64,000 nt of DNA from Planotetraspora mira (GTDB taxonomy: Bacteria > Actinomycetota > Actinomycetes > Streptosporangiales > Streptosporangiaceae), in contig NZ_BOOO01000036.1 in the NCBI RefSeq assembly GCF_016863275.1, positions 124,001 through 188,000 on the forward strand, read 5' to 3'. Made by a program: the position numbers and the translations under genes. Below the pieces are notes generated by a model. It was not told the origin of the DNA. It saw nothing but the letters and a program-made list of their open reading frames with translations, and did not search any database. Shown here piece after piece: positions 16,444-46,587 of the stretch (the stretch's first letter is position 1; each line of letters opens with the position of its first letter).

Positions 16444-16672
16444 ATGCCAGATCACAAAGGACGTTCGGCCAGGTGAGAGGTGACGCGGCCGAATCCACGC
16501 ATGATCACGATGCGAGAACGCGCAGGTGGAAGGGGGTTTTCCCGAATCCGTGCATGATCACGGCGGGGGGAGGGGCAGGTGGGAGGGGGCGCGGGCGAAG
16601 GTGTGCATGATCACGCGGGGGATTGACGCGTGCGCATGATCACGGCGGGGGAGGTGCGGGGGGATCATGCGG
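16444..16672 (+). repeat. Array A of the 53-bp-period GTGCATGATCAC repeat
   Basis: Core sites start at 16444 (degenerate, ATGCCAGATCAC), 16497 (ACGCATGATCAC), 16550 and 16603 (both exact GTGCATGATCAC): three successive intervals of exactly 53 bp. Two more follow at 29-bp steps, 16632 (GCGCATGATCAC) and 16661 (core inverted relative to the others). Sites at 16497 and 16550 are preceded by CGAATCC, and the one at 16603 by CGAAGGT. The sequences between cores are G-rich and differ from those in the arrays near 36-37 kb. The last core overlaps the DeoR stop codon. The gap between MFS and DeoR holds nothing else. Confidence 0.88.
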
Positions 16673-35017: not shown

Positions 35018-36079
35018 TCATCCGTGCGGCGGTGATGGGGTGTCCCCGTCACGGAGCAGCGGGTGGGAGCGCATCGCGACCTCCAGCTCTCCGGGAAGCT
35101 CGTCCCGGTACCGGCCGAGTGTGGACAGGTCGCTGTGCCCGAGAACCCGGCGCACCGCGTCCATGTCCGTGCCGTCCGCTAAGAGATGCGTCGCCGTCGT
35201 GTGGCGTAAGCCGTGCGGGGTGACGCTGCGCCGCCGCCCCGGCTCGACCCGCTGCTGCATGCGGTCGATCACCGCCTGCACGTCGCCCCGTGCGAGCCGC
35301 CGGCCGCGCCAGGACAACAGCAGAGCCTTGTCCCGCTCGGCCGCCCGGACCACCAGATACGCGTCGAACACCGCGGCGACGTCACGGGGGAGCGGCACAT
35401 CCCTGGTCTTCCCGCCCTTGCCGAAGATCCGCCAGTAACGCACCCCGTCGTTGGTGTAGAAGTCCTCCACATTTGCCCTGACTAGCTCGGACACTCTCGG
35501 CCCCAGCGTCGCGAGCAGCAGGACGATCAAGGCGTCACGGATGTCGGTCCGCTGGTCCCTTCGCCGGGCGGGCTCGGCGGCGGGGGAGCGGGCCGCGCCG
35601 ATCAGGCCCTCCGCCTGCTCCTTGGTCAGGGCCCGGCGCTCGGCCCGCAGCCCGCCACGCTCCCGCGCCGTGACCGATGCCGTCGCCATCGGGTTCAGCT
35701 GCACCCAGCCCACCGACGCGGCGTGCTTGAACAACGCGGAGACCGATCGCCGGAAGCGGGCCTGCGACGCCGCGCTCTGCACACCCTCATCCTTGCGGGG
35801 GGCGTCCGCCCTGCGCCGCTCGTCGGGTTTCCTCGCGAACGCCAGGAGCACCTCGTCGACGTCCTCACCCGTCAGGTCGTCGAGCACCCGGCCCGGGCCT
35901 GCCAGCCGTACGAACGTGGTGACGTCGCGCGCGTAGACCTCGGCGGTGGCGGGGGAGAGCGCCCCGGTCACGGTCTTGGCCCGCACCAGATCCACGTAAC
36001 GATCGGCGGCCTCCTCCACGGTCAGGCGGTTCACCTGTGCGGGCAGCATGATCGAAACCGTACCGGTGCCCACCGACAT
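35018..36079 (-). CDS. Tyrosine recombinase/integrase, XerC-like
   Basis: 353 aa. N-terminal SAM-like DNA-binding domain (about 18-125) and catalytic domain with all active residues: Arg195 in GPRVSEL, Lys224 in GKGGK, His289 and Arg292 in HGLRH, His315 in GHSD and Tyr324. It is longer than XerC/D by about 50 residues, mainly a basic insert at 83-105. Start ATG 36079; ATG 36049 is possible. The start is 28 nt from repeat array B. Its stop codon is at the transposon insertion point but is intact. Role unknown; the palindromic arrays may be its sites, a hypothesis only. Confidence 0.92.
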   Translation of the reverse strand: MSVGTGTVSIMLPAQVNRLTVEEAADRYVDLVRAKTVTGALSPATAEVYARDVTTFVRLAGPGRVLDDLTGEDVDEVLLAFARKPDERRRADAPRKDEGVQSAASQARFRRSVSALFKHAASVGWVQLNPMATASVTARERGGLRAERRALTKEQAEGLIGAARSPAAEPARRRDQRTDIRDALIVLLLATLGPRVSELVRANVEDFYTNDGVRYWRIFGKGGKTRDVPLPRDVAAVFDAYLVVRAAERDKALLLSWRGRRLARGDVQAVIDRMQQRVEPGRRRSVTPHGLRHTTATHLLADGTDMDAVRRVLGHSDLSTLGRYRDELPGELEVAMRSHPLLRDGDTPSPPHG

Positions 36080-36106
36080 TCACAGATCGAAGAGCCGGCG
36101 ACCACC

Positions 36107-36276
36107 GTGATCATGCACACCTTCGGGAATGTGCGGCCTGAGCTGCACCGACTCGTTCCGTGATCATGCACGGATTCGGCCGCACCTGCCGTGACGTGCG
36201 TCTTTGCCGTGCGTGATCGTGCGCACTTTCTGGCAGATCCCGCTGAGCTGGCCTTACGTCAAGCGCGATCATGCAC
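36107..36276 (-). repeat. Array B of the 53-bp-period repeat
   Basis: Written on the plus strand the core is GTGATCATGCAC. Starts at 36107 and 36160 are exact, 36213 reads GTGATCGTGCGC, and 36265 reads GCGATCATGCAC. Spacings are 53, 53 and 52 bp. Flanks are ACCTTCG at 36107 and GGATTCG at 36160, the complements of CGAAGGT and CGAATCC in arrays A and D. About 120 bp (36107-36226) match array D in inverted orientation at roughly 93 percent by eye. It fills the region directly upstream of the recombinase start. Confidence 0.9.
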
Positions 36277-36355
36277 GTGACTGTGTGCAGCGGCCTGGCC
36301 TCGGCATTCAGTTTCTGGTGGCGCCGCGTTGGCGAGGGTGCTCAGAAGAACCGTT

Positions 36356-36397
36356 CTCCCATACCGGACAGAATTCACCTTCTGTCCGGTATGGGAG
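36356..36397 (-). terminator. 18-bp perfect stem terminator after the L7/L12-like gene
   Basis: Arms 36356-36373 and 36380-36397 pair perfectly with a 6-nt loop. The hairpin abuts the TAA stop codon of the minus-strand gene with no gap. Confidence 0.8.
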
Positions 36398-36838
36398 TTA
36401 GAGGGCATTGATGAATGCTTCTGCTTCCACTTGTCCCATTCCGGTCTCGCCGCGGACGAGTAGCACGGCCTGCTGGGTACGGCCGGCCGCCTTCAGCTCG
36501 CGAACCCGGGAGGCGAGGTCGGAGGGGGTGGGGGTGACTCCTGGAATCGGCTGTCCCGCGGCGATGGCATCCACGACGCTCTTGCCTTCTCTGGGGCCGA
36601 TCCCGGTTTCCTCCCTGACGACCTTGATCGCCTGAGTTTTCCGTCCTTCGGCGATGAGAGCCCGTACACGGTTCTGCAGGTCAGCGGAGATCGGCGGCGG
36701 AAGCCCGGGTGAACGCCAGCCAAGCGAGGTGCTGGGCCGGGCGCCTGTCCGGACTGCGGCCAGCACGACCACGAGTGCCGCGACCGTGAGAAGGGCGGCG
36801 AGCACCAAGACGACTAACTCGATCGTGAGGCCGAACAT
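36398..36838 (-). CDS. Membrane-anchored protein with two L7/L12-like repeats
   Basis: 146 aa. One N-terminal transmembrane helix (residues 6-30) is followed by a Pro-rich linker. Two copies of a helical motif like the C-terminal domain of ribosomal protein L7/L12 follow: RVRALIAEGRKTQAIKVV with ETGIGPREGKSVVDAI (57-94) and RVRELKAAGRTQQAVLLV with ETGMGQVEAEAFI (111-144). Such anchored proteins are common in actinomycetes and uncharacterised. Start ATG 36838. It lies between inverted copies of the palindromic repeat. Confidence 0.82.
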   Translation of the reverse strand: MFGLTIELVVLVLAALLTVAALVVVLAAVRTGARPSTSLGWRSPGLPPPISADLQNRVRALIAEGRKTQAIKVVREETGIGPREGKSVVDAIAAGQPIPGVTPTPSDLASRVRELKAAGRTQQAVLLVRGETGMGQVEAEAFINAL

Positions 36839-36885
36839 GTCGTGATCGTACGGCTTTACCTACCCATTGCCCCAGCCCCCTCGGC

Positions 36886-36950
36886 GTGATCATGCACACC
36901 TTCGGGAATGCGCGGCGCGAGCTGCACCGACACGTTTCGTGATCATGCGA
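36886..36950 (-). repeat. Array C of the 53-bp-period repeat
   Basis: Two cores on the plus strand at 36886 (GTGATCATGCAC then ACCTTCG) and 36939 (GTGATCATGCGA), 53 bp apart. About 64 bp from 36885 are identical to array D read in the opposite direction, so C and D form an inverted pair around 36950-37170. A weaker GTGATCGTACGG lies at 36842 by the L7/L12-like start. Confidence 0.85.
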
Positions 36951-36983
36951 TGCGCAGGCATGCTCGCCGGCAATCATTAATTA

Positions 36984-36999
36984 ATCTACATTGTAAAGG
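36984..36999 (+). repeat. 16-bp AT-rich repeat, copy 3
   Basis: ATCTACATTGTAAAGG followed by GCGC, as in copy 2. It sits between arrays C and D in the least GC-rich DNA of the window. The rest of 36950-37117 holds no gene; a weak hairpin GTTTTGGA/TCCAAAAC lies at about 37006-37036. Confidence 0.85.
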
Positions 37000-37117
37000 C
37001 GCTCAGTTTTGGAAAATTGTTCCATCTCTCCAAAACCCAAACCAGCACCTACGAGCGCGGCTGCTGAGTTGTCTCGTCCGTTGGGTCCGGCCTGCTAGAC
37101 AAGACTGAGCCGGCAGC

Positions 37118-37288
37118 GCGCATGATCACGCACGGCAAAGACGCACGTCACGGCAGGTGCGACCGAATCCGTGCATGATCACGAAACGTGTCGGTGCAGC
37201 TCGCGCCGCGCATTCCCGAAGGTGTGCATGATCACGCATCGGGGATGGCGAGGTCGTGCAGGGTATTTGCGAATCTGTGCATGATCAC
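37118..37288 (+). repeat. Array D of the 53-bp-period repeat
   Basis: Cores at 37118 (GCGCATGATCAC), 37171, 37224 and 37277 (all exact GTGCATGATCAC): three intervals of exactly 53 bp. Preceding heptamers are CGAATCC at 37171, CGAAGGT at 37224 and CGAATCT at 37277. A bare TGATCAC follows at 37300 and a degenerate GTGCTTGATAAG at 37322, close to the end of the next gene. Confidence 0.9.
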
Positions 37289-37348
37289 GCCCATTAAAGT
37301 GATCACGCCTATGAAGGAGTTGTGCTTGATAAGGAACATTATGTCAAG

Positions 37349-38134
37349 TTACTTGGGTTGAGGCTTCTCTCTTGGGGGTTGTGGGGCGCATGGCGTCGTC
37401 GGTTTGAGGGTGGGCTTGCTTTGTGTGGGTTGTGCTGGTGAAAGCTTCTTCGGGTCGGTCTTACTCGCCACTGCCGACACGCTCGGACACGGGACGATCG
37501 GCTCCGGGGTCGCCGTGAGCCGCAGCATGGCCAGGATCACGACGCCGATCAGCACCACGGCGCCGGCCAGGAGAATCACACCGGTGTGATTATGCCGCCC
37601 GGGGTCGGGCGTCTCGAAGTCCTCGATTCCCGGCATCGACGACTGGGCTGACTCCTCAGGCTCCGTGACGCCGCCGTTGAAGCCGGAGCGCAATGCGAAC
37701 CCGTGCCCGGACTCCACCCGGAACGCCTCCTCGTCCGCCAGGAACCTCCGGTAGGCGGCCAGTGACAGATCCCGGCAGATTCGCAGGTCGTCGGAGCCCG
37801 GTGGACCTGCTCCCCCGCCCACGTAGACGAATCCGTAGATCAACTGGAGAGGCCGGCTGTGCGTGTCCCGGGGTGCGCGCTCGGCCGGCGGCGTTCCCGG
37901 TTCGGCGACGTCCGCGGCGGTGACGATGTGGGTGGCGTGGACGATCGATATCCTCCGTCCGGAGGGTGTTTCCGTTTCGACGACGGCCGCCCGGTCCTCC
38001 TGGCTGTCCGGCACCACGGTGTCGTCGAGGACGCCGTGCTCCCCCGCCGATATGAGGAAGCCGGGCGCGAGGATGGTGCGGTATCCGAGGCGCCTCCCCC
38101 GGGCTACGAGGAACGGCCAGGCGTACCCGCTCAT
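37349..38134 (-). CDS. Single-pass membrane protein of unknown function
   Basis: 261 aa, not recognised. About 185 residues of soluble N-terminal domain (YAWPFLVARGRRLGYRTILAPGFLISAGEHG, then LQLIYGFVYVGGGAGPPG, LRICRDLSLAAYRRFLADEEAF) precede one transmembrane helix (VILLAGAVVLIGVVILAML) and a Pro/Lys/Thr-rich tail of about 50 residues. Start ATG 38134, 4 nt after the GTPase stop, so it is coupled to that gene. It is probably a partner of the membrane GTPase. Confidence 0.72.
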   Translation of the reverse strand: MSGYAWPFLVARGRRLGYRTILAPGFLISAGEHGVLDDTVVPDSQEDRAAVVETETPSGRRISIVHATHIVTAADVAEPGTPPAERAPRDTHSRPLQLIYGFVYVGGGAGPPGSDDLRICRDLSLAAYRRFLADEEAFRVESGHGFALRSGFNGGVTEPEESAQSSMPGIEDFETPDPGRHNHTGVILLAGAVVLIGVVILAMLRLTATPEPIVPCPSVSAVASKTDPKKLSPAQPTQSKPTLKPTTPCAPQPPREKPQPK

Positions 38135-38138
38135 GTCA

Positions 38139-39407
38139 TCACCCGCCTTCGGACAGCCGGGAGTACGGCAGACGTCCTTCCATGGCGTCCACTTTGCGGC
38201 GCATGTCGTACATGACACGTCGGCGGGCGAGCTGGATGCTTTCGATGCGCTGTTCCGCCTCGTTCAGCTCTCTGCCGAGGCGTGCTCGTTCGTCGTCGGG
38301 TGCGCCCATGCGTGAGTCGAGGAAGAAGCCGAGCACGGTGTCGCCGAATGCCGCGCCCGGGGTGCCGAGCATGGCGAGCACCGTACGGCCGGCGAGTTGG
38401 CCGGCGAAGTTGGTGAGCGAGGCGAACGCCTCGAGGGCGCCCTGCCGGGTGCGCTTGTCGACCTCGGCTCTGATGGCGGCGATGCTGTCGTGGTCGAGGC
38501 GGGTCTCGATCTGTTCGAAGAGTCCGGGGACGACGGCCGACAGCGGGACGTCCACGTTGGTCGGCTGTACCGCGCTCTGCGGGGTTTTGACGATCTCTCC
38601 GCTCGGGTCGATGGTGGCGAATCCGGGTCCGACGGCGCTGACGGGGATGAGGCGGACCACCCGGGTGGCGCCGTGCAGGTTCACCAGTGAGCGGAAGTGG
38701 TCGTTGGACGTCAGCAGGTTGCGGACGATGTTGAGCCGGGTGCTCTCGTCGGGGTGGAGGCCGGCGAGCAGGTCCCATTTGGTGATGACGAAGCTGATGG
38801 GGGCTGTCGCCTCGAGCATGACGGGCAGGAGCGCGTTGAGGGTTCGTTCGAGGTGGAGCGGCCCTTCGGGGTGGCCGTCGACGTGCTGGCGTATGCGGTA
38901 GCCGTCGATGACTCCGATGAGGGCGTCGGCGGAGTCGATGTGGGAGAAGAGTTCCTGCTGTTTGGTGGATCCGGCGTCCTGGAGGTCGGTGAGCAACTCC
39001 CCCGCGTATTCGAGGTACTTCAGGTCGAGGATGGGGTGCGCCGCGCCGTCGATGTGCGTTTTCACGGTGAAGGTGAAGTGGCGTGTCTCGCCTTTGGCGG
39101 TGCCGCGTGGCCAGGCGCCGGTGGCGGCGGTGTCGGCCATCTGGAGGTACCAGTCGTTGAGTTGCAGGACGTCGTCGCGGGTCGCGGTGATGAAGTAGCA
39201 CTGGCCGGTCGGCGCCTTGAGCCGGTGGTACATGCTGGCGAGCAGCAGTGTCTTCCCCGACCCCTGCAGGCCGAGGGCGACGACGTTGAAGGTCGGGATC
39301 GTTTCGGTGACGGTGAGCGGGCCGGTGTCGCGTCGCCTGCGGATGTGTTTGGCGAGCAGCGTGAGGAGGATGCTGAGGATGATGATGATCAGGACGACAG
39401 CCATCAT
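38139..39407 (-). CDS. Membrane-anchored TRAFAC-type GTPase
   Basis: 422 aa. One N-terminal transmembrane helix (residues 2-19) and an RRRR stop-transfer are followed by a P-loop GTPase domain. Walker A is GLQGSGKT (46-53), the switch-like segment is DLKYLEYAGE (128-136), and the base-specificity motif is TKWD (209-212). The C-terminal 120 residues form a helical region with heptad-like charge (RARLGRELNEAEQRIESIQLARRR). This resembles the double-GTPase-like proteins found in actinobacterial conflict or signalling operons. That link is family inference and weak. Start ATG 39407, GGAG upstream. Confidence 0.78.
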   Translation of the reverse strand: MMAVVLIIIILSILLTLLAKHIRRRRDTGPLTVTETIPTFNVVALGLQGSGKTLLLASMYHRLKAPTGQCYFITATRDDVLQLNDWYLQMADTAATGAWPRGTAKGETRHFTFTVKTHIDGAAHPILDLKYLEYAGELLTDLQDAGSTKQQELFSHIDSADALIGVIDGYRIRQHVDGHPEGPLHLERTLNALLPVMLEATAPISFVITKWDLLAGLHPDESTRLNIVRNLLTSNDHFRSLVNLHGATRVVRLIPVSAVGPGFATIDPSGEIVKTPQSAVQPTNVDVPLSAVVPGLFEQIETRLDHDSIAAIRAEVDKRTRQGALEAFASLTNFAGQLAGRTVLAMLGTPGAAFGDTVLGFFLDSRMGAPDDERARLGRELNEAEQRIESIQLARRRVMYDMRRKVDAMEGRLPYSRLSEGG

Positions 39408-43760: not shown

Positions 43761-44837
43761 TCAGCAGATCCGCGGTAGCGGGTCACCGACCAGCAGGTCG
43801 ACGATGCGGGTCCCGCCGAATGCGGTTTTCAGCAGGACGAGGCCGGGCGGGTCGTCGTTGACCCGGCCGACGACGGCGGCTTCGCGGCCGAGCGGGTGCG
43901 AGTGCAGCGCGGTGAGCGCCGTCTCGGCGGACGCCTGGGACACGATCGCGACCATCCGGCCTTCGCAGGCGACGTACAGCGGGTCGATGCCTAGGAGTTC
44001 ACATGCCCCGCGAACGTCAGGACGAACCGGAATTATGTCCTCATTCACGACAATTGCCGCTTTGGATGCCTCGGCGATCTCGTTGAGGACGGTGGCCACT
44101 CCCCCGCGGGTGGCGTCGCGGAGGCAGCGGACCTCGCCGTCGTCGCAGGCGTCCAGCAGTCGCGCGGTGAGTTCGTTGAGCGGCGCGGTGTCGGAGGTGA
44201 GGTCGGCCTGGATGTCGAGCTCTCCCCTGGCCAGCATGATCGTGATGCCGTGTTCGCCGATGGGCCCGGACACGATGACCGCGTCGCCGGGCCGGGCGGC
44301 GGCGGCGCTCAGCCGGGTGGGCCGGTCGAGCGTGCCGACGCCCGCGGTGACGACGTAGCAGCCGTCGGCCTTGCCCCTCTCGACGACCTTGGTGTCGCCG
44401 GTGACGATCTGCACGTCCGCCGCCTTTGCGGCCGCGGCCATGGACGCGGTGATGCGCCGCAGGTGGGCGAGGGGGAAGCCTTCCTCGAGGATGAAGCCGG
44501 CCGACAGGTATCGGGGCCGGGCCCCGCACATGGCGAGGTCGTTGACGGTGCCGTTGACGGCCAGGTCGCCGATGTCGCCGCCGGGGAAGAACAGCGGGGT
44601 GACGACGAACGAGTCGGTCGTGAAGGCCATCTCGTCGATGACCGCGCCGTCCTCCAGCGGTTCGAGGAGGGCGTTGCGGAAGGACTCGAGGAACACCCCT
44701 TCGATCAGCGTGTGGGTCGCCTTGCCGCCTGCCCCGTGGGCGAGGGTGATGTACTCCTCGCGCACGCGGGCCTTGCGGCGGCGGGCCCGCTCGATGCGTT
44801 CGAGGACCTGCTCCTCCAGGCCGGTGTCTCCTGTCAC
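43761..44837 (-). CDS. hypE: Hydrogenase maturation protein HypE
   Basis: 358 aa AIR-synthase/PurM-like fold. HypE dehydrates the carbamoyl group held on its C-terminal Cys to make the cyanide ligands of the [NiFe] site. The protein ends PRIC, with that Cys last, as required. AHGAGGKATHTLIE and DEMAFTTDSFVVTPLFFPGGDIG are the ATP-binding motifs. Start ATG 44837 overlaps the hypD stop by ATGA. HypF, which supplies the carbamoyl group, is not in this window. Confidence 0.97.
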   Translation of the reverse strand: MTGDTGLEEQVLERIERARRRKARVREEYITLAHGAGGKATHTLIEGVFLESFRNALLEPLEDGAVIDEMAFTTDSFVVTPLFFPGGDIGDLAVNGTVNDLAMCGARPRYLSAGFILEEGFPLAHLRRITASMAAAAKAADVQIVTGDTKVVERGKADGCYVVTAGVGTLDRPTRLSAAAARPGDAVIVSGPIGEHGITIMLARGELDIQADLTSDTAPLNELTARLLDACDDGEVRCLRDATRGGVATVLNEIAEASKAAIVVNEDIIPVRPDVRGACELLGIDPLYVACEGRMVAIVSQASAETALTALHSHPLGREAAVVGRVNDDPPGLVLLKTAFGGTRIVDLLVGDPLPRIC

Positions 44838-45961
44838 TGGCGGGTCGCCTCCTTGACGCGCTCACGGGAGAAGCGCCCGAAGTTGTAGTAGGCGGCGCAT
44901 GCTCCTTCGGAGGAGACCATGCAGGTGCCGATCGGCGTCTCCGGCGTGCAGGCGGTGCCGAAGACTTTGCACTCCCAGGGTTTGAGCACGCCCTTGAGCA
45001 CCTCGCCGCACTGGCAGGAGGTGGGGTCGGCGACGCGGCCGCCGGGGATCTGGAAGATCCGTTCCGCGTCGTAGCGGGCGTACTTGGCGCTCACCCTGAG
45101 CGCGGACTGGGAGATGAATCCGAGGCCGCGCCATTCGAAGTGGGGCCGCAACTCCATGACCTCGTTGATGGCGGCCAGGGCCTTGGGGTTGCCGTCCCAG
45201 GGCACGACGCGGGCGTACTGGTTCTCCACTTCGCAACGGCGCTGCGCGAGTTGGGTGAGGATCTGGTGGACCGACTGCAGGACGTCGAGCGGTTCGAATC
45301 CGGCCACGACGATGGGCTTGCCGTAGTCGCGGGCGATGAACCGGTACGGCCGGCAGCCGATGACGGTGGAGACGTGGCCGGGGCCGATGAAGGCGTCCAG
45401 GCGCAGGTCGGGCGAGTCGAGGATGGCCTTGATGGCGGGGATGATCGTGACGTGGTTGCAGAAGACCGAGAAGTTGTCGACGCCGTCGGCCTTGGCCCGC
45501 AGGACGGTCATGGCGGTCGACGGTGCGGTCGTCTCGAAGCCGATGGCCATGAAGACGACGCGTTTGGACGGGTTCTGCTTGGCGATCTTCAGGGCGTCGA
45601 GCGGTGAGTAGACCATGCGGATGTCGGCGCCGCGCGCCTTGGCGTCGAGGAACGAGCCCTTGCCGCCGGGGACGCGCATCATGTCGCCGAACGACGTCAT
45701 GATGACGTCGGGCTGCGCGGCGATGTGGATGGCGTCGTCGACCCGTCCCATCGGGATGACGCAGACGGGACATCCGGGTCCGTGGACGAGCGTGACCGCT
45801 TCGGGCAGGTAGTCCTCGATGCCGTGCTTGTAGATCGTGTGGGTGTGGCCGCCGCAGACCTCCATGAACTTGTAGGAACGGCCGGGTTCGCAGAGCGCGG
45901 TGATCCGGGCGGCCAGTGCTCTGGCCGTGTCGGCGTCGCGGTATTCGTCGACGAAGCGCAT
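44834..45961 (-). CDS. hypD: Hydrogenase maturation protein HypD
   Basis: 375 aa. HypD is the iron-sulfur scaffold that, with HypC, builds Fe(CN)2CO. Conserved Cys motifs are seen: MEVCGGHTHTIYKHGI near residue 38, LVHGPGCPVCVIP near 67, and the [4Fe-4S] ligands toward the C-terminus (CQCGEVLKGVLKPWECKVFGTACTPE). Length is normal. Start ATG 45961 lies 7 nt after the hypC stop. It is the central partner of HypC and HypE here. Confidence 0.97.
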   Translation of the reverse strand: MRFVDEYRDADTARALAARITALCEPGRSYKFMEVCGGHTHTIYKHGIEDYLPEAVTLVHGPGCPVCVIPMGRVDDAIHIAAQPDVIMTSFGDMMRVPGGKGSFLDAKARGADIRMVYSPLDALKIAKQNPSKRVVFMAIGFETTAPSTAMTVLRAKADGVDNFSVFCNHVTIIPAIKAILDSPDLRLDAFIGPGHVSTVIGCRPYRFIARDYGKPIVVAGFEPLDVLQSVHQILTQLAQRRCEVENQYARVVPWDGNPKALAAINEVMELRPHFEWRGLGFISQSALRVSAKYARYDAERIFQIPGGRVADPTSCQCGEVLKGVLKPWECKVFGTACTPETPIGTCMVSSEGACAAYYNFGRFSRERVKEATRQ

Positions 45962-45968
45962 TCAGGTG

Positions 45969-46247
45969 TCACCCCTGTTCGATCATGGATTCTCGGAGCG
46001 CCGCGATCTCGTCGTCGTAGGCCTGGCCGATGCTCTCGAGGAAGTCGAGAGCGGCCTTGGCCTCGGTCTCGTCGATCTTGGACAGGGCGAAGCCGACGTG
46101 GATGAGGATCCAGTCGCCGGGTGCGACGGTCTCGTCCTCGAGCAGGCCGATGTTGATCGCGCGCCGTACGCCGCTGACGGCGACCATGGCGAGGTCGGGA
46201 CGGTCATTCAGGATTTCCACGATCTCGCCGGGGATTCCCAGGCACAT
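45969..46247 (-). CDS. hypC: Hydrogenase assembly chaperone HypC
   Basis: 92 aa. N-terminal MCLGIPGEIVEI has the essential Cys2 (after Met removal) that carries the Fe(CN)2CO unit with HypD and hands it to the large subunit. The body GDWILIHVGFALSKIDETEA is the usual beta-barrel end. Start ATG 46247 lies inside the end of hypA, a 44-bp overlap, and hypD follows by 7 nt. Confidence 0.96.
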   Translation of the reverse strand: MCLGIPGEIVEILNDRPDLAMVAVSGVRRAINIGLLEDETVAPGDWILIHVGFALSKIDETEAKAALDFLESIGQAYDDEIAALRESMIEQG

Positions 46248-46587
46248 GGGTGGCCTCCGCCATCTCAATGGATTCGAGGATGAGGTCGTCGCCGCCCTCG
46301 GTGTCGATGTCCGCGCCGCCACAGCCCGGGCATGTGACGAACGGGTCGTGTGAGGTCGTCGTCTGACCGCAGGACCGGCAGGTCAGCCTGGCCGGGACGA
46401 TGACCAGGTCCACGCGGGCGCCCTCGGCGGCCGATCCCTCGGCGACCATGGCGAACGCCTGGTTGATCGCGGGCTCGGTGATGCGCAGCAGCGCTCCGGC
46501 GCGTACGCGTGCCTGCCGGACGCGACGGCCGGCGGCGCGTTGCTCGACCGCGGAGAGGATGGCTTCGGCGATTCCGAACTCGTGCAT
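46204..46587 (-). CDS. hypA: Hydrogenase nickel-insertion protein HypA
   Basis: 127 aa. N-terminal MHEFGIAEAIL provides the Met1-His2-Glu3 nickel site. The zinc-binding loop has two CxxC pairs, CRSCGQ and CPGCGG, at about residues 70-93. The C-terminal tail is 25 residues longer than usual because of the overlap with hypC. Start ATG 46587. HypB, its usual GTPase partner, is absent from the window. Confidence 0.94.
   Translation of the reverse strand: MHEFGIAEAILSAVEQRAAGRRVRQARVRAGALLRITEPAINQAFAMVAEGSAAEGARVDLVIVPARLTCRSCGQTTTSHDPFVTCPGCGGADIDTEGGDDLILESIEMAEATHVPGNPRRDRGNPE

Follow-up and report, generated by a model that had tools for sequence, protein, structure and literature searches.

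Hundreds of short arrays of a directly repeated 53-bp unit lie chiefly at gene ends in the soil actinomycete Planotetraspora mira and in part of its relatives, and paired arms of these arrays point outward from the intergenic gap. The features observed belong to the DNA side: copy number, phasing, an orientation rule, position, conservation, differences of core and flank between lineages, and decay at one locus. From these we infer a protein, its cooperativity and a transcription-blocking role; the reading that we prefer, at somewhat less than even confidence, is that these are binding arrays for a putative clade-specific DNA-binding protein and that they probably serve, where genes end, as polar roadblocks or insulators.

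The repeat was recognized in a window of 64,000 nucleotides (the whole stretch of DNA that was analysed), located on contig C36 of the 9.03-Mb P. mira genome (G000). Array A (16497..16643, plus strand) contains three cores at 53-bp steps, the first with two mismatches, and a fourth core follows 29 bp on. An earlier note on this DNA had listed ten cores in arrays B, C and D, all of which were recovered with at most two mismatches and at the spacing claimed: array B (36107..36276, minus strand) holds four, at 36107, 36160, 36213 and 36265 (steps of 53, 53 and 52 bp); array C (36886..36950, minus strand) two, at 36886 and 36939 (53 bp); and array D (37118..37288, plus strand) four, at 37118, 37171, 37224 and 37277 (53, 53 and 53 bp). 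The conserved CGAA flank beside the core and the between-core sequences common to different loci were also found as described; the core itself, taken for a palindrome, has partial symmetry and is not a full one. At up to two mismatches the window contains 20 core matches, compared with a mean of 4.65 and a largest value of 9 in 100 shuffles.

If the outer end of an array is defined as the end toward which GATCACG points, array B faces the start of a tyrosine recombinase gene (Phage_integrase, PF00589; 35018..36079, minus strand), array C the start of the small gene 36398-36838 and array D the stop codon of gene 37349-38218, and arrays C and D together point outward. On its inner side, array B is accompanied by a terminator-like inverted repeat with an 18-bp stem (36356..36397, no strand assigned; recognized by eye), which immediately follows the stop codon of gene 36398-36838. 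The product of this small gene, located between arrays B and C, begins by eye with a hydrophobic N-terminal stretch and includes a segment like the C-terminal domain of ribosomal protein L7/L12, just below the Pfam cut-off. Other genes of the window include 38139-39407, for a putative Double-GTPase 2 protein (PF19993, just below cut-off), which at its 3' end overlaps the beginning of the like-oriented gene 37349-38218, and a region (43761-46322) coding for proteins that by eye resemble hydrogenase maturation HypE, HypD and HypC.

Beyond the window, the exact core GTGCATGATCAC occurs 623 times in the P. mira genome (307 + 316) and its reversed control 0 times; in the five genomes of the genus, P. 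mira included, 165-698 core copies were counted in each and 0 in the control. A position weight matrix described the P. mira unit as cCGAAcCT-GTGCATGATCACG, about a dozen loose bases, GcGCaGGTCgG and a loose spacer with a period of 53 bp, that is, a core with its left flank and a middle motif, GCAGGTC. When 2.04 Mb from four genomes were scanned with this matrix (844 kb of G000 and 400 kb each of G001, G062 and G168), 436 units were detected versus 2 in reversed sequence, and 116 arrays of at least two units versus 0. Chained steps measured exactly 53 bp in 247 of 285 cases over the four genomes (127/130 in G000 and 50/50 in G001), proportions in which regular steps are favored by the method, as chaining permitted 52-54 bp or the double only, the training set of the matrix consisted of units that had a phased partner and came from the stretches later scanned, and the reversed-sequence control guards against chance alone. 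The commonest distance between same-strand units (20-180 bp) was 53 bp by far, and it ranked first in every stretch; on contig C1 it occurs 62 times, and any distance other than 53, 106 and 159 bp once or twice. Array size is also restricted, with 3-5 units in 37 of the 40 arrays from the G000 stretches (844 kb); each of the 49 G062 arrays has 2-4, and 82 of the 87 units of contig C1 are inside arrays.

Random spacing of the cores elsewhere in the genome, which had been named as evidence against the period, was thus not encountered, steps in the scanned stretches being mostly 53 bp. The stepping in G000 and G001 supports the proposal of phased sites for one putative protein, and such a step, about five helical turns, would place all cores on one side of the DNA. 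Looser stepping in G062 (57/85 exactly 53 bp) and G168 (13/20) counts against the binding-array reading.

The tyrosine recombinase appears as a bystander outside this system. Its start codon does lie 28 nt from array B, as the earlier note had reported, and this proximity is what speaks for the arrays being arm-type sites of the adjacent enzyme. The adjacency holds for array B but does not characterize the system: the genome has 623 exact cores, and ten array-adjacent genes checked at other places are unrelated to this recombinase. Among 24 genomes tested (13 with arrays and 11 without), the orthologue is present in 23 regardless of arrays: 22 of the 23 genomes other than P. mira carry it at 78-97% identity, ten of them without arrays, in two pieces in G068 and with one in-frame TAG in G037 and G086, and the hit in G054 is weak and partial. 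Cores were seen at 3 of 12 loci around the recombinase (G000, G003 and G004) and were absent there in the array-bearing G001, G002, G062, G037 and G086 (the G086 locus being incomplete), whereas arrays are found genome-wide. The orthologue distribution and the core-free loci disfavor the recombinase as the cognate protein, and arm-type sites are a scarcely credible explanation.

The location of the arrays was analysed with genes called by a home-made codon-usage finder, for which start codons are approximate and stop codons firmer. Outer ends face a stop codon in 82 of 116 arrays and a start codon in 34, the latter counting against a roadblock at gene ends. Relative to the stop, 61 of the 82 stop-facing ends fall between -60 and 30 bp, and 17 exactly at -4, which puts the stop codon TGA within the outermost core; the median distance for start-facing arrays is 92.5 bp. 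In gaps measuring at least 200 bp, arrays are present between convergent genes in 20/63 cases, between tandem genes in 36/225 and between divergent genes in 3/163 (convergent versus divergent, p = 6e-10; convergent versus tandem, p = 0.011), and among shorter gaps 9/244, 9/921 and 0/140, respectively. Overlap with predicted genes is 3% on average; three G062 arrays lie largely within called genes (overlap 0.54, 0.88 and 1.0), which may be false gene calls. Paired arms, counted when at most 150 bp apart, are outward in 35 cases and inward in 0, with inward pairs sought up to 400 bp apart. The inner gaps of these 35 pairs include nine of 10-12 bp and three of 0 bp (G168), so short that the facing inner cores would be able to form a hairpin.

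Outward polarity at gene ends suggests a polar transcription barrier or insulator; the 3'-end bias could also be mere promoter avoidance. Arrays in divergent gaps were considered as a pointer to an autoregulated gene for the binder and this was abandoned, the genes at the three gaps and at one start-facing array not being shared. Ten array-adjacent proteins that were checked are mutually unrelated enzymes and regulators. This lack of relatedness, the preference for convergent over tandem gaps and the density of 40 arrays in 844 kb would also suit gene-end anchors that organize the chromosome or control supercoiling, engaged by a nucleoid protein or a gyrase-recruiting complex, and E. coli BIME-2 elements have been described as working in this manner. 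Anchors of this type leave the strict outward polarity unexplained, and restriction to one clade would be odd for a housekeeping role; we consider them unlikely.

Comparison of P. mira with G001 (median protein identity 94%) indicated that array positions are mostly stable between these two species. Where the neighbouring genes are conserved, the two agree at every gap, 12/12 with arrays and 289/289 without. A comparison based on flanks, which works without called gene neighbours, located 14 of the G000 array gaps within the stretch of G001, 13 of them with arrays; the exception was C1 60118. Arrays are likewise absent from the recombinase locus of the close species G001 and G002, and these differing positions argue against binding arrays. 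For a transposon or MITE, which would be expected to differ in insertion site between close species, the comparisons give mixed indications. In orthologous G000/G001 arrays, substitutions per site amounted to 0.053 for the core, 0.234 for the flank, 0.231 for the middle motif and about 0.44 for spacers, where the value partly reflects units misaligned after unit gain or loss; 114 ordinary gaps change at 0.132 per site. The ratio of indels to substitutions was 0.023 in arrays versus 0.080 in those ordinary gaps. These values indicate that the core, the middle motif and the array length are maintained and that the remainder turns over fast, and the retention of array length as spacers diverge agrees with phased sites for one putative protein. 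Part of the turnover consists of whole-unit gain and loss: at locus 1 (L129-L151), where arrays are present in 6 of 24 genomes (the genus and G168), species of the genus have 1, 2, 3 or 4 units, changing by whole 53-bp units, from which it follows that arrays expand and contract. Another part is the resemblance among arms located at one place, as in arrays B and D.

Across genera, under strict gene adjacency, G168 has an array in only 1 of 4 G000 array gaps (p = 0.059); better evidence of conservation comes from locus 2, which was inspected by eye. At this locus, the 3' end of one conserved gene, recognizable arrays occur in 9 of 24 genomes (five of the genus, G062, G168, G037 and G086), and ten further genomes retain by eye alignable remnants with broken cores (G163, G166, G120, G162, G099, G169, G165, G164, G119 and G098); G161 is doubtful and G068, G054, G007 and G034 show nothing on the same inspection. 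G037, G086, G168 and G062 have one and the same inner spacer, GACCTGCCCAAAAGGC, which can be read in the remnants as well but not in the own genus; this implies that the arrays sharing it have common descent despite differing cores and flanks. Four genomes (G163, G120, G165 and G169) have arrays elsewhere and no more than remnants at locus 2, an observation that weighs against the binding-array reading.

Such remnants, together with the whole-unit changes at locus 1, the few positions that differ between close species and a REP-like location, are what would be expected of a selfish high-copy extragenic repeat, REPIN/RAYT-like and maintained by a putative recombination or transposition enzyme, whose position bias would result solely from selection against promoter hits. 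By eye, arrays B and D are also more alike within G000 and within G003 than across species. Against a selfish origin stand the array and empty gaps shared by G000 and G001 (12/12 and 289/289), an array length kept tighter than that of ordinary gaps, a unit without pairing covariation and locus 1, where no target duplication was noticed by eye. The Y1 transposase (PF01797) is absent from 7 of 11 array-bearing genomes (G000, G001, G002, G003, G062, G168 and G163) and present in the other four (G004, G037, G086 and G120) and in 5 of 10 further genomes, 9 of 21 overall. A selfish repeat is regarded as unlikely, although it is the alternative to be taken most seriously.

With the REP/BIME and REPIN/RAYT (TnpA-REP) families the arrays share hundreds of extragenic copies, 3'-end bias, a paired or arrayed layout and differences between lineages. 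Membership was examined through four features. The extragenic, 3'-end-biased location in more than 100 copies was found; a Y1 transposase throughout the array-bearing genomes, a stem-loop palindrome and alternating orientation were not, and membership is not supported. The units within an arm are direct repeats with no alternation, set in outward arms, in contrast to the alternating orientation of REP/BIME; no stem-loop unit or GTAG/CGTC tag was seen, the step is 53 bp, and positions are common to species and partly to genera. Because REP/BIME, the nearest known kind, fails in three of the four features tested, the element is rated as a new kind.

Most arrays are located directly after stop codons and would consequently be transcribed, as expected for an RNA element of 3' untranslated regions that aids termination, affects stability or acts as an sRNA. 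By eye, locus 2 in several genomes has a hairpin after the innermost unit, so that the array is between stop codon and hairpin, and stems of 11-17 bp arise from some of the inner cores that face each other. In 177 units, however, the columns that depend on one another revealed no pairing pattern: dependency is strongest between adjacent columns, and the one distant pair to exceed the largest shuffled value, 34-43 (0.160 versus 0.147), has non-complementary letters. Rfam gave no match in window positions 35900-37500 at E <= 0.1. P. mira arrays fold less stably than random genomic windows (median -20.4 versus -23.0) despite being longer. At positions 20-21, 136 of the 177 units read TT, TC, AA or GA (TY or RA); this strand-symmetric preference suggests duplex DNA, which the fixed step also fits. 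An RNA element is consequently very unlikely.

Terminator-like hairpins occur in 10 of 29 convergent gaps with arrays versus 29 of 51 array-free ones of at least 150 bp (p = 0.066), a difference compatible with arrays standing in for terminators and not significant. A best 50-nt fold of -25 kcal/mol or lower was present on the inner side of 30% of arrays in G000, 56% in G001 and 20% in G062, compared with 48% when 380 3' ends lacking arrays were examined and 32% for 300 random windows. As hairpins are not enriched in array gaps, they give no sign of a termination role, and arrays as companions of intrinsic terminators, an arrangement seen by eye at locus 2, were rejected as a general rule on the fold and hairpin counts. 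Inverted repeats of another type were noticed on contig C1 of G062, in the array-bearing gaps from 114736 and 165842, where a variant core (CGTGACCTTGCAC ... GTGCAAGGTCACG) forms 15-bp stems; they are possibly a second, related repeat family.

The arrays have a narrow distribution. A search of 345 genomes belonging to the order for TGCATGATCAC paired at 53 bp (up to 3 mismatches) detected one or more such pairs in 30 and at least 10 in 13: the five of the own genus (194-731), G062 (532), 5 of 15 genomes of genus g65 (10-180) and both of g34 (52 and 239). The remaining 17 genomes have 1 or 2 pairs, about chance level (the control gave two hits in all); those of G054 and G098, which carry the middle motif, may be remnants. 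The pattern GATCACG-N13-CAGGTC, searched in 120 genomes, has at least 17 matches in each of eight genomes, all from these four genera, and 1-2 matches in a further 31, and a survey of 296 genomes of the phylum returned G000 and one single match only. Core and flank vary lineage by lineage: the consensus is cCGAAcCTGTGCATGATCACG in G000, cCGAACTTCTGCATGATCACG in G004, gGGAAcctGTGCATGATCACG in G062, TGCGAg.aacTGCAAGATCACG in g34 (commonest flank TGCGAGTTTC, 5/25) and TGCAAGATCACG in G163 of g65 (commonest flank TGCGACAAAC, 8/28). The 53-bp step is kept with these other cores or flanks (G004, 24/24; g34, 16/16; G163, 11/18), in counts from units chosen for a partner 52-54 or 105-107 bp away.

Differences of core and flank that run through a whole lineage, and facing inner cores capable of forming hairpins, recall an uptake or transfer dialect. 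DNA uptake sequences are rewritten species by species and are often inverted pairs at gene ends; those of Neisseria and Haemophilus resemble the present element in a core of about 12 bp, inverted pairs at gene ends and species-wide rewriting. Uptake sequences are also single and common inside genes, whereas the present units are in 53-bp phased arrays (82/87 on contig C1) and almost absent from genes (3% mean overlap), so that an uptake function is highly improbable. CRISPR arrays have a similar period and repeat-plus-spacer look; the middle motif conserved inside the spacers bears out the earlier note's statement that these are not CRISPR spacers, and the arrays here are many and short in each genome and their outermost core can contain the stop codon of a gene. 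Mycobacterial MIRU and intergenic tandem repeats, some with units of about 53 bp, have a similar tandem length and lie at gene boundaries; in the arrays only core, flank and middle motif are kept, spacers vary widely and arms are inverted. A phage origin was rejected, since no exact phased pair was found in viral contigs, a search from which near-own records were possibly excluded. In the titles and opening lines of abstracts of open-licence literature on intergenic or phased repeats, REPINs, BIMEs and Planotetraspora repeats, no matching element was found, and a search of that literature for 12-base strings of the element gave no repeat paper by title, with a single match in a paper on Streptomyces ArgR (PMC5839063).

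Under the binding-array reading, each 53-bp unit would be a double-stranded DNA site for one putative clade-specific protein or complex that recognizes the core with its flank and the middle motif GCAGGTC. The step of about five turns would set the units on one face of the DNA and allow 3-5 copies to assemble cooperatively, and the assembled complex, directed outward from the gap centre and located mostly after stop codons, would most probably act as a polar roadblock or insulator against transcription into the neighbour. A more specific version is offered tentatively, well short of even confidence: a genome-wide, sequence-specific polar boundary system at gene ends in which a dedicated protein polymerizes on the phased arrays, outward from the gap centre, and in which protein and arrays changed specificity together with the step kept. 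Given five core/flank lineage types, such joint changes would have taken place at least four times, over several hundred arrays.

Sal-box/TTF-I terminators of eukaryotic rDNA are likewise tandem, oriented duplex sites just downstream of genes; the arrays described here differ in being bacterial, genome-wide and located at unrelated genes. We are aware of no bacterium in which gene ends across the genome are marked by phased, oriented protein-binding arrays. Should they obstruct transcription or shield neighbouring genes from each other, the arrays would correspond, in bacteria, to the boundary elements or terminator boxes of eukaryotes. The lineage-wide change of core and flank at many sites under a fixed 53-bp step would also constitute a natural experiment on how a protein and all its sites change together.
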